A stretch of DNA of 31,040 nucleotides from a virus. Of the stretch, positions 735-11,953 are shown piece after piece. Position numbers and translations under genes: made by a program. Positions within the stretch are counted from its first letter, which is position 1; the number at the start of each line of letters is the position of its first letter. The stretch is taken from IMG/VR virus record IMGVR_UViG_3300044644_001185, positions 1-31,040 of that record. The stretch is one strand, 5' to 3'. The notes under the pieces were generated by a model that was not told the DNA's origin, ran no database searches, and worked only from the letters and a program-made list of their open reading frames with translations.

Positions 735-932
735 TCAGTGGGGCAGGACCTGATCCTGCTCCACCCTCCGCAACGTCCGCAACACCATCTCCCCGCGCGT
801 CGCCTCCAGCATGGCGTAGTCATCCTGTTCTTCACGCCAGCTGCCCTCCTCATACTCTGTCAGCTCCCTCTCCACGCACCTGATGAGGTACGCCAGCTCC
901 TGGGCTGTCAGTACCAGGGTTGCCTCAGGCAT
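735..932 (-). CDS. Small acidic helical protein
   Basis: A 65-residue protein starting at the ATG at 932, overlapping the end of the upstream helix-turn-helix gene by 8 nt. It reads as two charged amphipathic helices: a first with LTAQELAYLIRCVERELTEYE and a second with ATRGEMVLRTLRRVEQ. Short 'LTxxELxxL' helical proteins are common in phage early regions. No specific role can be read from the sequence. Confidence 0.7.
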   Translation of the reverse strand: MPEATLVLTAQELAYLIRCVERELTEYEEGSWREEQDDYAMLEATRGEMVLRTLRRVEQDQVLPH

Positions 933-1212
933 GGCCCACCCCCACTTCGATGGTGAAGGTCATGGGCACCGGCTCAACGACGCACTCCACCGGCCCGGCC
1001 AGGCGGAGGATCGGCTTGGCCGCACGCTTCAGGTTCCCGTTGGGGAGCCTGGGCAGGCGGATGCCACGCTTGTTAAGGGCGTGCTTCCGCTGGCAGATCT
1101 GGCTATAGGAAATGCCCATCAGGTCAGCCACCTCACGCAAGGTCAGGCCAGCCTCAGCGGCCTGCTTGTACTCAGCGATGAAGGCAGTGGTGTCGAATCC
1201 CAGCTTACGCAT
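925..1212 (-). CDS. Small helix-turn-helix DNA-binding protein
   Basis: This 95-residue protein starts at the ATG at 1212, preceded by AAGGAGAG. Residues about 22-50 (GLTLREVADLMGISYSQICQ, then RKHALNKRG) form a classic helix-turn-helix with the pattern of a repressor or resolvase-type recognition unit. The C-terminal 40 residues are unassigned. It follows the DUF932 gene but is separated from it by a strong hairpin (1234-1259), so its level is probably set separately. It is a candidate regulator of this leftward arm; the target site is not known. Confidence 0.8.
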   Translation of the reverse strand: MRKLGFDTTAFIAEYKQAAEAGLTLREVADLMGISYSQICQRKHALNKRGIRLPRLPNGNLKRAAKPILRLAGPVECVVEPVPMTFTIEVGVGHA

Positions 1213-1233
1213 TGCTTCTCTCCTTGAAGAACA

Positions 1234-1259
1234 GGGGGGCGGCCCAGTTGCCGCCCCCC
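1234..1259 (-). terminator. Intrinsic-terminator-like hairpin after the DUF932 gene
   Basis: A perfect 10-bp stem (GGGGGGCGGC paired with GCCGCCCCCC, 6-nt loop) lies 14 nt after the DUF932 stop. On the minus strand the stem is followed by the modestly T-rich TGTTCTT and then at once by the ribosome site of the helix-turn-helix gene at 1212. There is no room for a promoter in between, so termination is probably partial. Confidence 0.65.
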
Positions 1260-1272
1260 GGGAACAGAACAA

Positions 1273-7082: not shown

Positions 7083-7721
7083 TTAGTCTTGGGCAAGGGG
7101 CATGATCACGGACTCAAACTTCACTTCACACTCGGCGCTGAAATGCACGGCACTCTGGCTGTCGGTAGCCGTGGCATGCACTTGATCGAAGCCACACTGG
7201 ATGGCCGTCTCGCACATGTCACGGACATACCGGGCATCCAACTTCACCTTGGCCCCGCAGATCTCCAGTTCCAGGGACGGCTTGGCGCCGCAGTCTGCCT
7301 GTTCCTTCAGGGCTTTCCGGGCCTCGTCCCTCAGGGGCTTAACCGCAATCGGCCACCACCCCTGCCCCTCCTTGGGGTACAGCACCTGCTCAGTCTTGGG
7401 CCACTGCTCCAGCTCCTCATGCGGCACAGTGGTCATGCTGTTCTTCCCGTACAGCGTGACCGTGCCGTTCAGCCCCACGGAGTAGCCGTCAGGGGTGACG
7501 CCCACTGCCCGCAGGGTCTTGGCCAGGGTCTTGGACGGCAGCCCATACTCCTTTGGCTCTCCATCACACGGCCAGGTCAGGCGGCACAGTCGCCGCCCGT
7601 CCGTGGCCTCGGCAAACACGGTGCCATCGGCACGCTTCAGTCGGACACAGCCCAGCTGGTAGCGGCTGGCCTCGTCGTCAGCCCACTTGGGCAGGGCAGC
7701 GATTGCTTTAGGCAGGTGCAT
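7083..7721 (-). CDS. Sliding-clamp-like (DnaN-like) protein
   Basis: A 212-residue protein from the ATG at 7721 with TGGAGG upstream. It resembles a partial bacterial beta clamp: VRLKRADGTVFAEATDGRRLCRL (about residues 26-48) copies the clamp motif 'ATDGHRLA', and the chain ends FESVIMPLAQD, like the clamp's terminal 'YVIMPMRL'. At 212 residues it is shorter than the three-domain clamp (about 370), so it would cover two domains or be a divergent form. A DNA-replication processivity role is inferred. Related short clamp-like proteins occur in other phages. Confidence 0.6.
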   Translation of the reverse strand: MHLPKAIAALPKWADDEASRYQLGCVRLKRADGTVFAEATDGRRLCRLTWPCDGEPKEYGLPSKTLAKTLRAVGVTPDGYSVGLNGTVTLYGKNSMTTVPHEELEQWPKTEQVLYPKEGQGWWPIAVKPLRDEARKALKEQADCGAKPSLELEICGAKVKLDARYVRDMCETAIQCGFDQVHATATDSQSAVHFSAECEVKFESVIMPLAQD

Positions 7722-8019
7722 CGGAATCCTCCAGGTTGGCAAGGTGGTTGCGGGCCAGTTCACTCCAGTTGACGGCAGAGATGGCCGCCCCAAGCAGGTC
7801 GGACAGCAGGCCCGACAGGCCAGCCTTCTCGGCGTCGTACTCCACAGACTCCTTCATCTCGTCGGCCAGGTATCGGATCGCTGCCCCTTGGGAGAAGCAG
7901 TCGTTCTCGCCACTATCCCGGGCCTCCTCTGCCCGCTCTTTCCAGAACTCCTGGTCGGCCTGGTTGTTGTCAAACCACAGGGCGACCAGCCAGGTTTCGA
8001 CGTTGGTGTAGCCGTTCAC
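7708..8019 (-). CDS. Conserved 'NGYTNVETWxVALW' phage protein
   Basis: A 103-residue protein starting at GTG 8019, preceded by AGAGG and giving a GTGA overlap with the upstream stop. The N-terminal NGYTNVETWLVALWFDNN matches a widespread small phage family (pattern 'NYETWxVxLWxxND', DUF7249-type). The remainder is helical and acidic. The function of the family is unknown. Confidence 0.8.
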   Translation of the reverse strand: MNGYTNVETWLVALWFDNNQADQEFWKERAEEARDSGENDCFSQGAAIRYLADEMKESVEYDAEKAGLSGLLSDLLGAAISAVNWSELARNHLANLEDSDAPA

Positions 8020-8734: not shown

Positions 8735-9619
8735 TCACGCTGCCAGGTAGTACTCAGGTTCAGCCTCGGCGGGGTGTACGCTCCCCACCAGGTCAATGCC
8801 GGTCGGCACCGCAAACTCAGACTCACAGGCATCCTCACGCTTGTCGCCGGACGCCTTCAGTCGCAGGCCCACGCAGATGTCCTGGGGGTCCAGGAACCGC
8901 AGGTCCAGCCGGTCACCGTCCACCACCTGCCAGACCTTCCCGTTGGGGTCAGTCCAGGTGGCAGGCAGGTAGCCGAACTCACTGCCCCACGGGTTCCACA
9001 CGGTGTCGAACACCACGGCGATGTTCGATCCGGTGCGGTAGACACGCTCCCAGTCCTTGGCCTGCGTGCCGTCGTTGTAACTGTATGTCAGGTGGTAGTT
9101 AGCTGGAACAGAACCCAGACGCTCAGAGCATTTGGTGTAGTCCCAGAACCGCCAGCCATAGTCAAACATCCATGGGAACAACTTCTGCCAGTTGACATCG
9201 GAGTCCACATTGGCACGGGCTGCGATGATGTAGTCACTGGCATTGCGGGTGATCCTGTCCATCTCACGCCGCAGGTAGGCACCGAACGTCCGGGGGTTCT
9301 CACTGAGCCACCGTGTCAGGTTGATCCGGGCCGCACGCACAAAGTCAGACTGACCATGCCCAGCCTCCCAGGTGACACAGGGGCCAGAACACATGGACAA
9401 TCCCCTGCGGTTGGCCCACTGTCCAATCTCATAGACATCCTTGCCATCATCCAGCATCTGCTGCATCACAGACCTTCTCAGGGCCCGTGGGCAGGTATTG
9501 ACACCAGAGCTGTCAGAGGAGGCCAGGGAGATCGTATAGACCTTGTATTCCTCTCCGTGGTGGCTGATCTTCGTATTGCTGTCACCGTCCTGAATGATCT
9601 GGGCGATCTTGTATGACAT
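8735..9619 (-). CDS. GP88/DUF7227-like phage protein
   Basis: A 294-residue protein from the ATG at 9619 with CAGGAG upstream, the first gene of the leftward arm. It resembles the phage GP88/DUF7227 group: SYKIAQII...DGDSNTKIS at the N-terminus, Cys-containing stretches NTCPRAL and LSMCSGPC, then ANVDSDVNWQKL...WRFWDYTK and PANYHLTYSYNDG in the middle. The family's role is not established; the Cys residues may bind metal. As first gene it should be the most highly and earliest expressed of the arm. Confidence 0.65.
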   Translation of the reverse strand: MSYKIAQIIQDGDSNTKISHHGEEYKVYTISLASSDSSGVNTCPRALRRSVMQQMLDDGKDVYEIGQWANRRGLSMCSGPCVTWEAGHGQSDFVRAARINLTRWLSENPRTFGAYLRREMDRITRNASDYIIAARANVDSDVNWQKLFPWMFDYGWRFWDYTKCSERLGSVPANYHLTYSYNDGTQAKDWERVYRTGSNIAVVFDTVWNPWGSEFGYLPATWTDPNGKVWQVVDGDRLDLRFLDPQDICVGLRLKASGDKREDACESEFAVPTGIDLVGSVHPAEAEPEYYLAA

Positions 9620-9634
9620 GGCTAACTCCTGTTG

Positions 9635-9675
9635 GCTGTCCGCATCACACTTGCCCGCATCGCTGTCCGCATCAC
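9635..9675. repeat. 14-bp direct repeat in the leader of the leftward arm
   Basis: GCTGTCCGCATCAC occurs at 9635-9648 and again at 9662-9675, 27 bp apart, just upstream of the first leftward gene. The second copy runs into the inverted repeat at 9675-9691. It may be a duplicated binding site. Confidence 0.5.
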
Positions 9676-9691
9676 CCACGGAAACCGTGGG
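9675..9691. promoter_or_regulatory. Perfect 7-bp inverted repeat
   Basis: CCCACGG-AAA-CCGTGGG forms a perfect hairpin or dyad between the divergent transcription units. In the leftward RNA it would be a stable leader hairpin; in DNA it could be an operator. Confidence 0.5.
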
Positions 9692-9710
9692 GGGGCTGGC
9701 CGTGGCCCGG

Positions 9711-9730
9711 CAGTGTACGCTGGTACACTG
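9711..9730. promoter_or_regulatory. Perfect 8-bp dyad, candidate operator
   Basis: CAGTGTAC (9711-9718) and GTACACTG (9723-9730) are exact reverse complements separated by GCTG. The dyad lies in the divergent control region, adjacent to the phased A-tracts, and has the size of a dimeric repressor site. The helix-turn-helix protein at 925-1212 is one possible ligand, but this is a guess. Confidence 0.5.
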
Positions 9731-9738
9731 CGGGGCCG

Positions 9739-9775
9739 GAAAACTGCGGAAAACGCGGGGAAAACGGCCGAAAAC
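9739..9775. promoter_or_regulatory. Helically phased A-tracts (predicted bent DNA)
   Basis: GAAAAC occurs at 9739, 9749, 9760 and 9770, spacing 10, 11 and 10 bp, in otherwise very GC-rich DNA. A4 tracts in phase with the helix cause intrinsic curvature, as at many promoters and origins. The last copy sits within the palindrome CGGCCG-AAAA-CGGCCG. Confidence 0.55.
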
Positions 9776-9807
9776 GGCCGCGGCGGCGCCGAGCGATTTG
9801 GCCGCCT

Positions 9808-9836
9808 TAAATAGTCCCGCGCCGCTCGCCCAAAAA
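9808..9836 (-). promoter_or_regulatory. Weak candidate promoter for the leftward arm
   Basis: On the minus strand TTTTTG (9836-9831) and TATTTA (9813-9808) are separated by exactly 17 nt, the only AT-rich pair in this region. It points toward the first leftward gene, about 190 nt away, with the bent DNA and dyads downstream. The match to sigma70 is modest. Confidence 0.35.
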
Positions 9837-9950
9837 AAACGCGGCGGCCCGGAAGATTTTCCCGGCGGCGGCGCGGGAGTCTAGATGTCGGCCGAACGAA
9901 CGGCCGACCGGCCGCCCCGCCGATCCGGGGCACCAACAGGGAACCCAACC

Positions 9951-10154
9951 ATGTCCGCGACTTACGAACTCCGCCCCGCGACGAAGACCGCCCCCGCCAC
10001 GCTTGTGGTGACGATCCCCGTGAACGCCGACGCCCCGCTCAGTAGCACCGGCAAAACGCGGCTTGTGGCCACCACGCACGGCAACCAGCCCACGCCCATC
10101 ACTATCAACGGGCAGGTGGTCAAAGTCGGTTTGACCGCCTTTTACAAGGCCTGA
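9951..10154 (+). CDS. Hypothetical 67-residue protein, first rightward gene
   Basis: Starts at the ATG at 9951 (weak ACAGGG upstream). The product (MSATYELRPATKTAPATLVV...) looks like a small beta-rich domain, with TIPVNADAPLS and ITINGQVVKVGLTAFYKA. Codon use is extremely GC-rich, like the rest of this island. It is followed by a long perfect hairpin (10167-10200). Function unknown. Confidence 0.6.
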   Translation: MSATYELRPATKTAPATLVVTIPVNADAPLSSTGKTRLVATTHGNQPTPITINGQVVKVGLTAFYKA

Positions 10155-11215: not shown

Positions 11216-11222
11216 CCAACCG

Positions 11223-11263
11223 CCCCGGCCGCAGCAGACCCGACACGGGGAGCGCGGCCGGGG
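11223..11263 (+). terminator. Terminator-like hairpin after the sigma-like gene
   Basis: The 9-bp perfect stem begins 7 nt after the stop of the gene ending at 11215, with a nested inner stem. No T-run follows. Position favours an RNA 3' end or stabiliser. Confidence 0.45.
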
Positions 11264-11371
11264 CCGACTGAACCCGCGACCAACCGCGGCCCCAGCCGGG
11301 AGGGGTGATCCAGGCCGACCGGCCCCGGGGAAACCCGGGGCCGCCACCGTACACGCTCCGCAGCAGACCCG
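11229..11371. repeat. 14-bp direct repeat CCGCAGCAGACCCG
   Basis: Identical copies at 11229-11242 and 11358-11371 within the gene-free stretch. A second 14-bp pair, GCCACCGTACACGC, lies at 11343-11356 and 11549-11562. Such iterated short words fit an origin or protein-binding array but are also expected occasionally in biased DNA. Confidence 0.4.
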
Positions 11372-11953
11372 CCGCCGCCTGATCACCGGCCGCGGACGAG
11401 CGATCCCCAGCCGGGGAACGAACGGACGGCCGAACGAATCGCCACTGGGCGAGGGGTGGCCGCGCCGAACGTCAGGAGCGAATCCCCCGCCAGCGCAGCG
11501 GGGGACACGCCGCCGGGGGCCGTGGCCGAAAGAAGGCCCGCCCCGGCGGCCACCGTACACGCGGCCCCGGCACCAGTGCGACCGCCGACAGGCGACCACG
11601 CACGGCCGGGGCCGCACGGGCGGGCGATGCACCACCACCGACCCCGCCGCCACCACCGCCGGCCGGCCCGGCTCGCCCGGCACCAGGCCGACGCACCCGG
11701 CGAGGGGGGGTGGCAGCATACGAACCGCCACCGAACACGTAACCCAAGGCCCGGCCGAGGCTTGCGGCTTCCCGCGACCCGGCCTGGCCATGGCCCGCGA
11801 CCGTATCGCCGGAGGGTACCGGGAGCCTACCGTGACCGGCGGCCCGACACGCGGCAGCGGCACTCGCTTCGCTCGCGGCTCCGGCGGGGCCCCTACCCCC
11901 CCGGAGCAAAGACAGTAGTTTAGTCAATCCGCCGCGCCGATTTTTTGAAAACT

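Follow-up and report, generated by a model that had tools for sequence, protein, structure and literature searches.

The window analysed here, a stretch of viral DNA of 31,040 nucleotides, forms half of a 60,301-bp IMG/VR record, which it matches at 100% wherever the two were compared, and that parent record is one member of a family of phages of 57-60 kb. Judged by the orientation of the open reading frames, the parent record of about 60 kb contains one divergent point, in the region at about 9.7 kb, and one convergent point; the claim of an earlier sequence-only reading of the window, that both transcription directions begin nowhere else, is therefore true for the parent record as well, and one short region sets the direction of the whole genome. 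The leftward operon of about 11.5 kb consists mostly of small genes, begins with a gene of the GP88 family and also encodes a sliding-clamp-like protein, a DUF932 protein, a small HTH protein and a serine resolvase, while the rightward operon of about 48 kb carries the genes for capsid, terminase, portal, ERF recombinase and helicase. The genes and features of the locus, in window coordinates, are as follows.

925..1272, minus strand: gene of a small HTH_23 protein (E=5.9e-6), the candidate cognate regulator
8735..9619, minus strand: GP88-family gene (PF17338, phrog_1617), first of the leftward operon, with a conserved start codon at 9619
9636-9644 and 9663-9671, minus strand: direct repeats TGCGG[AG]CAG, with a degenerate copy between them, just upstream of the GP88 ribosome-binding site
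9704..9737, no strand assigned: dyad GGCCCGGCAGTGTAC-GCTG-GTACACTGCGGGGCC with the core AGTGTAC-N4-GTACACT, candidate operator or hairpin
9739..9778, no strand assigned: phased A4 tracts starting at 9740, 9750, 9761 and 9771, with predicted intrinsic curvature
9808..9836, minus strand: candidate leftward promoter, with a T-tract (-35-like) at 9831-9836, N17 and TATTTA at 9808-9813
9815..9825, no strand assigned: left arm of the turnover inverted repeat, TCCCGCGCCGC
9857..9887, plus strand: candidate rightward promoter, with TTTT at 9857-9860 followed by TCTAGA/TAGATG at 9880-9887
9868..9878, no strand assigned: right arm of the turnover inverted repeat, GCGGCGCGGGA, ending 72 bp before the start codon of the right gene
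9887..9908, plus strand: predicted leader hairpin GTCGGCCG-AACGAA-CGGCCGAC
9951..10154, plus strand: gene of a 67-aa protein, first of the rightward operon, no Pfam match

The two sets of genes thus diverge from a single intergenic region and have early genes at their head, as in divergent phage control regions. Regarding the left flank, the assignment to the GP88 family is based on matches to Pfam (E=1.3e-20) and PHROG (E=1.9e-36), and relatives of the protein are 70-97% identical, with 68% in L009. Further relatives are gene 86 of 87 in mycobacteriophage Nyxis, where it heads the leftward operon, and gp2 of pelagiphage HTVC309P; in both phages the GP88 relative is the first gene of an early operon or close to it. 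Regarding the right flank, other relatives have an unrelated small gene in place of the 67-aa gene. The TGCGG[AG]CAG direct repeats precede GP88 in both main groups of relatives, and tandem copies 27-29 bp apart were detected only upstream of GP88 in the three genomes scanned. A scan of viral contigs for further members returned known family contigs and unrelated sequence only: every matching contig of this phage family has the repeats upstream of GP88, and the non-family matches inspected were unrelated sequence containing no control region. The direct repeats are a signature of the family in the relatives examined.

The intergenic region was extracted from 13 relatives or variants, the window being counted among them; the group designated L046-L052 leaves out L049 and L050, both of which belong to the first group. 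The dyad reported in the sequence-only reading, CAGTGTAC at 9711-9718 and GTACACTG at 9723-9730, is exact, extends to 14 of 15 complementary bases (9704-9718/9723-9737) around a 4-nt loop, and is present in a single copy both in the window and in the parent record. Its core AGTGTAC-N4-GTACACT is found in two lineages, namely in the near-identical L042, where the 15-bp arms are perfect, and in L009, where the core is kept with a different loop and different flanks at nearly the same distance from the GP88 start (90 nt, vs 91 nt in the window). The core was not found in relatives other than L042 and L009, and the dyad was rejected as the main feature of the locus because it is missing from most relatives; what had been noticed first is a less conserved part of the region.

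The four A4 tracts do lie in helical phase, as reported earlier from the letters, with a spacing of 10/11/10 bp, although the coordinates first given for them were one base early throughout. They make up the sole chain of at least three phased tracts of 4 nt or longer in the 31 kb. Predicted curvature, computed with the Bolshoy wedge model, reaches its window maximum here (107.7 degrees per 51 bp, centred on 9756), against a window mean of 24 degrees and a 99th percentile of 59, the second-highest peak being 80.1; A-tracts in helical phase together with high predicted curvature are characteristic of intrinsically curved DNA. Phased tracts and a predicted curvature of 91-146 degrees are kept in L041, L045, L050 and L009 despite differing flanks, and in L050 a T4 stands where the window has one of its A4 tracts, so that the curvature itself, and not the letters, seems to be kept in these relatives. 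Phased tracts and curvature are absent from L046-L052, L014 and L026.

The most conserved architectural element of the region is the inverted repeat at 9815-9825/9868-9878, which the sequence-only reading had missed and compared with which the dyad and the curvature are less constant. An inverted repeat was detected at the same place in all relatives examined, while the sequences of the arms are unrelated: TAAGTCGGCGCGCT in L041, AATAGTTCACCGCG in L014, AGCCGGGACCGG in L050, CTACAGCGGCGA in L047, GTACAGCGGCG in L051, AAGAGGGACG in L009 and AACGGGGCG in L026, with shorter forms in L045 and L046/L048. The distance from the end of the right arm to the start codon of the right gene is 66-73 bp in most variants and 50-57 bp in three, and the distance between the arms ranges from 23 to 82 bp; in the L046-L052 group the middle between the arms is conserved as CCTTACGAAAAAGAAAGG and close variants. 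The arms were taken as the best repeat of each region, a choice that the shuffled controls make in the same way, and against dinucleotide shuffles with position restricted the Fisher combined probability for ten variants was p = 3e-10. Pairing between a variant's own arms amounted to 9.6/10, vs 3.1/10 between arms of different variants, a comparison that is uncorrected for the choice of the best repeat, and no permutation reached the observed total of arm pairing. Complementarity also continues outward past the perfect core, with 54 of 110 positions paired vs about 31 when the arms are slid. Whole or nearly whole searches of three genomes (G001, G004 and G006) found the arm sequences only as the inverted pair, twice per genome, and they likewise occur only twice in the long partial stretches available for other relatives; a role as multi-copy stoperators was rejected on these counts.

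Regarding promoters, the TTTTTG-N17-TATTTA pair described earlier as pointing left is present on the minus strand (plus-strand letters CAAAAA at 9831-9836 and TAAATA at 9808-9813), whereas it is no strict sigma-70 match: a scan of 9600-9960 requiring at least 9/12 hexamer matches and a spacing of 16-18 bp returned none, and the candidacy of the leftward promoter therefore rests on its conservation in relatives. In 9/10 independent variants, read by eye, a leftward -10-like box (TATAAA, TAATAA, TATTAA, TATTTA, TATATG and similar) follows 15-20 nt after a T-tract and lies outside the left arm. The rightward counterpart is weaker, as the succession of T-tract, arm and TA/TT-box was recognised by eye in only 6/10 variants, and promoter-like boxes are missing or poor in the other four, which include the whole L046-L052 group. 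Local palindromes around the -10 boxes were not demonstrable (p = 0.09) and were set aside. Downstream of the rightward candidate, the leader hairpin at 9887..9908 is identical in L041, while L045 and L050 keep its loop with an altered stem.

Support for the proposed divergent control region with bent DNA comes from the unique divergence point, from the membership of the left gene in a family that heads early operons, or lies near their head, in other phages, and from the curvature and A/T-rich -10-like boxes that are kept in diverged relatives. The interpretation preferred here, held tentatively and at slightly below an even chance, is that the region represents the master divergent control region of the phage, with back-to-back promoters and with the arms as a fast-evolving operator pair. 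Two promoters would share the short region, the leftward one starting the GP88 early operon and the rightward one the operon of about 48 kb, with their -35-like T-tracts facing inward and their -10-like boxes on the outer sides. The spacer of each promoter would then be one arm of a single inverted repeat, so that both promoters would carry an identical site of 10-14 bp, pointing the same way with respect to the start that it serves; a count of two copies in each genome searched agrees with a single site at each promoter. A regulator of the phage, possibly the HTH protein encoded at 925-1272, might bind both arms and shut or coordinate both promoters. If one regulator recognises the arm, any shift in its specificity has to alter both arms together, and regulator and site would change specificity in step from one related phage to the next, like immunity specificity elsewhere. 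The curved DNA and the short dyad to the left of the promoters may help a second bound protein, or a loop, to act on this switch.

Binding of the small HTH protein to the control region is plausible, if unproven, since its gene is the fastest-changing of its neighbourhood, the recognition helix above all. Its positional orthologs are at most 69% identical (one was undetectable by tblastn), compared with 74-91% for the adjoining DUF932 protein, so the gene is far more variable than its neighbours, and most of the variation falls in the recognition helix, which differs where the arms differ. Such co-evolution of helix and arms is suggestive only, as it is drawn from five genomes in which both track genome divergence and shared ancestry is not separable. 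Several observations also stand against the operator model: the curved DNA lies downstream of the start of the leftward promoter and is absent in one group of relatives, no strict sigma-70 promoter was found, the rightward boxes are missing or poor in 4/10 variants, and the distance between the arms varies between 23 and 82 bp.

In more general terms, the locus may hold a control element that conserves base pairing and not sequence, either a switching immunity operator pair or a folded RNA or DNA element, a possibility judged somewhat less probable than its opposite; if true, immunity groups, or a structured control element, could be read from the repeat. Selection on a folded RNA or DNA would account for the pairing equally well, as selection on structure is expected to preserve complementarity while the letters change. 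The inverted repeat might accordingly form a folded leader hairpin that controls elongation of a very long operon, by put/nut-type antitermination or by attenuation, from which an operon of about 48 kb would benefit; the highly structured folding of the control region (z -4 to -5), the second leader hairpin downstream and the conserved middle in the L046-L052 group are all in line with this. The hairpin would form in a rightward transcript from left of 9797 or in a leftward transcript from right of 9880. Neither strand is favoured, since the excess of G-T over A-C outside the core is not above that of slid controls and folding z-scores at 9676-9825 are similar on both strands; the choice of a strand by G-T wobble was dropped for the former reason. 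The variation of the middle from 23 to 82 nt and the promoter-like TA-boxes at the outer edges of the arms also stand against the leader hairpin, which is held to be less likely than the operator model.

A replication origin, in which the repeat, the curved DNA and the TGCGG[AG]CAG repeats would be opened by a phage initiator and the inverted repeat would extrude or form a primer hairpin, is considered improbable. The restriction of the direct repeats with 27-29 bp spacing to this place, the curved DNA and a change in the sign of the GC skew near the divergence in G001 agree with an origin, but gene direction switches at the same point as the skew, and the cumulative skew has its minimum near 12 kb instead of 9.7 kb. 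By sequence, no known initiator and no solved structure was found among the relatives of GP88, and its AlphaFold model (pLDDT 40) was too poor to use; an initiator role for GP88 on the grounds of fold was set aside for these reasons. The inverted repeat could also be kept by mutation and have no function. Template switching at quasi-palindromes corrects the two arms to each other by copying one onto the other; it leaves unexplained the constant distance to the right gene, the presence of the repeat in every relative examined and the boxes at both outer edges, and is judged very improbable here.

Compared with known systems, the region shares parts of the cluster A mycobacteriophage and pLS20 systems and has the defining set of neither. 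The Pc/Pr conjugation switch of pLS20 has divergent promoters, two operators separated by a static bend of periodic A/T tracts, and looping (PMC4207663). The likeness lies in divergent promoters controlled together, as proposed here, and in a bend of phased tracts; in pLS20, however, the two promoters overlap each other and each operator contains several copies of a single regulator's motif (PMC4207663), whereas here the dyad and the promoter arms are unrelated in sequence, AGTGTAC being absent from the arms so that no common motif flanks the bend, and looping and binding are only proposed. In cluster A mycobacteriophages such as L5 and Bxb1 the operators are asymmetric, measure about 13 bp, are oriented with transcription and differ along with the repressor, and L5 has 24 or more stoperator sites along its genome (PMC5712189, PMC6550527). 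The present region resembles the cluster A Pleft in having a GP88-family gene near the head of a leftward early operon, and its turnover arms recall those asymmetric sites in varying between relatives; the many site copies of a stoperator system were not found, the arms occurring only as the inverted pair, and no repressor relative was identified. The proposed divergent control of phage operons by operators overlapping promoters also recalls the lambda-type immunity region (OR/OL), which differs in its tripartite palindromic operators, the arms here not being local palindromes. The leaders of HK022 (put) and lambda (nut) place structured elements where long early operons begin. A structured element at the start of a long operon is also present here, with only a proposed role as leader, and Rfam 15 gave no match in the control region at the gathering threshold.

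Regarding lifestyle, the tailed phage of about 60 kb is probably temperate, as its genome encodes a tyrosine integrase, an ERF recombinase and a serine resolvase. In the G001 record, serine resolvase and tyrosine integrase are found in one phage (L105:8450-9310 and L104:16521-17336). Regarding the host, a search with the capsid gene found one relative (67%) in a single Pirellulaceae MAG contig, which points to a possible planctomycete host as a lead and not as proof; a GP88 search of genome contigs gave no match, and the first 600 bases of the Pirellulaceae contig contain a 14-bp inverted repeat and no recognisable counterpart of the control region. Regulation is little known in phages that may infect planctomycetes.

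Two further observations concern other parts of the window. The product of 7083-7793 (minus strand) weakly matches processivity factors of DNA polymerase (phrog_947, E=6.6e-7), and this processivity-factor-like protein is present in most relatives at only 32-60% identity. On the plus strand, a probably noncoding stretch of about 700 nt at 11216-11930 consists of 6% T, 17% A and 77% G+C, the T content being the lowest of the window and 5-12% in relatives. It contains many hairpins with GAAA and TTCG loops and has no Rfam match; against shuffled sequence, folding at about 11476-11625 gave a z of -6.5 for the plus strand and -2.9 for the minus strand. Across five variants the hairpin at 11222-11268 retains 98.8% of its pairs; in three stem pairs both sides have changed, and the loop is kept. 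Within the T-poor region, copies of ACCGTACAC follow immediately 3' of GC-rich hairpins both in the window (11347 and 11553, plus strand) and in the relatives L009 (L009:1638 and 1830), L018 (L018:2050), L024 (L024:4515) and L025 (L025:4364 and 4631), as if the region were built of repeated modules. The stretch at 11216-11930 may represent a large structured noncoding RNA transcribed from the rightward operon.
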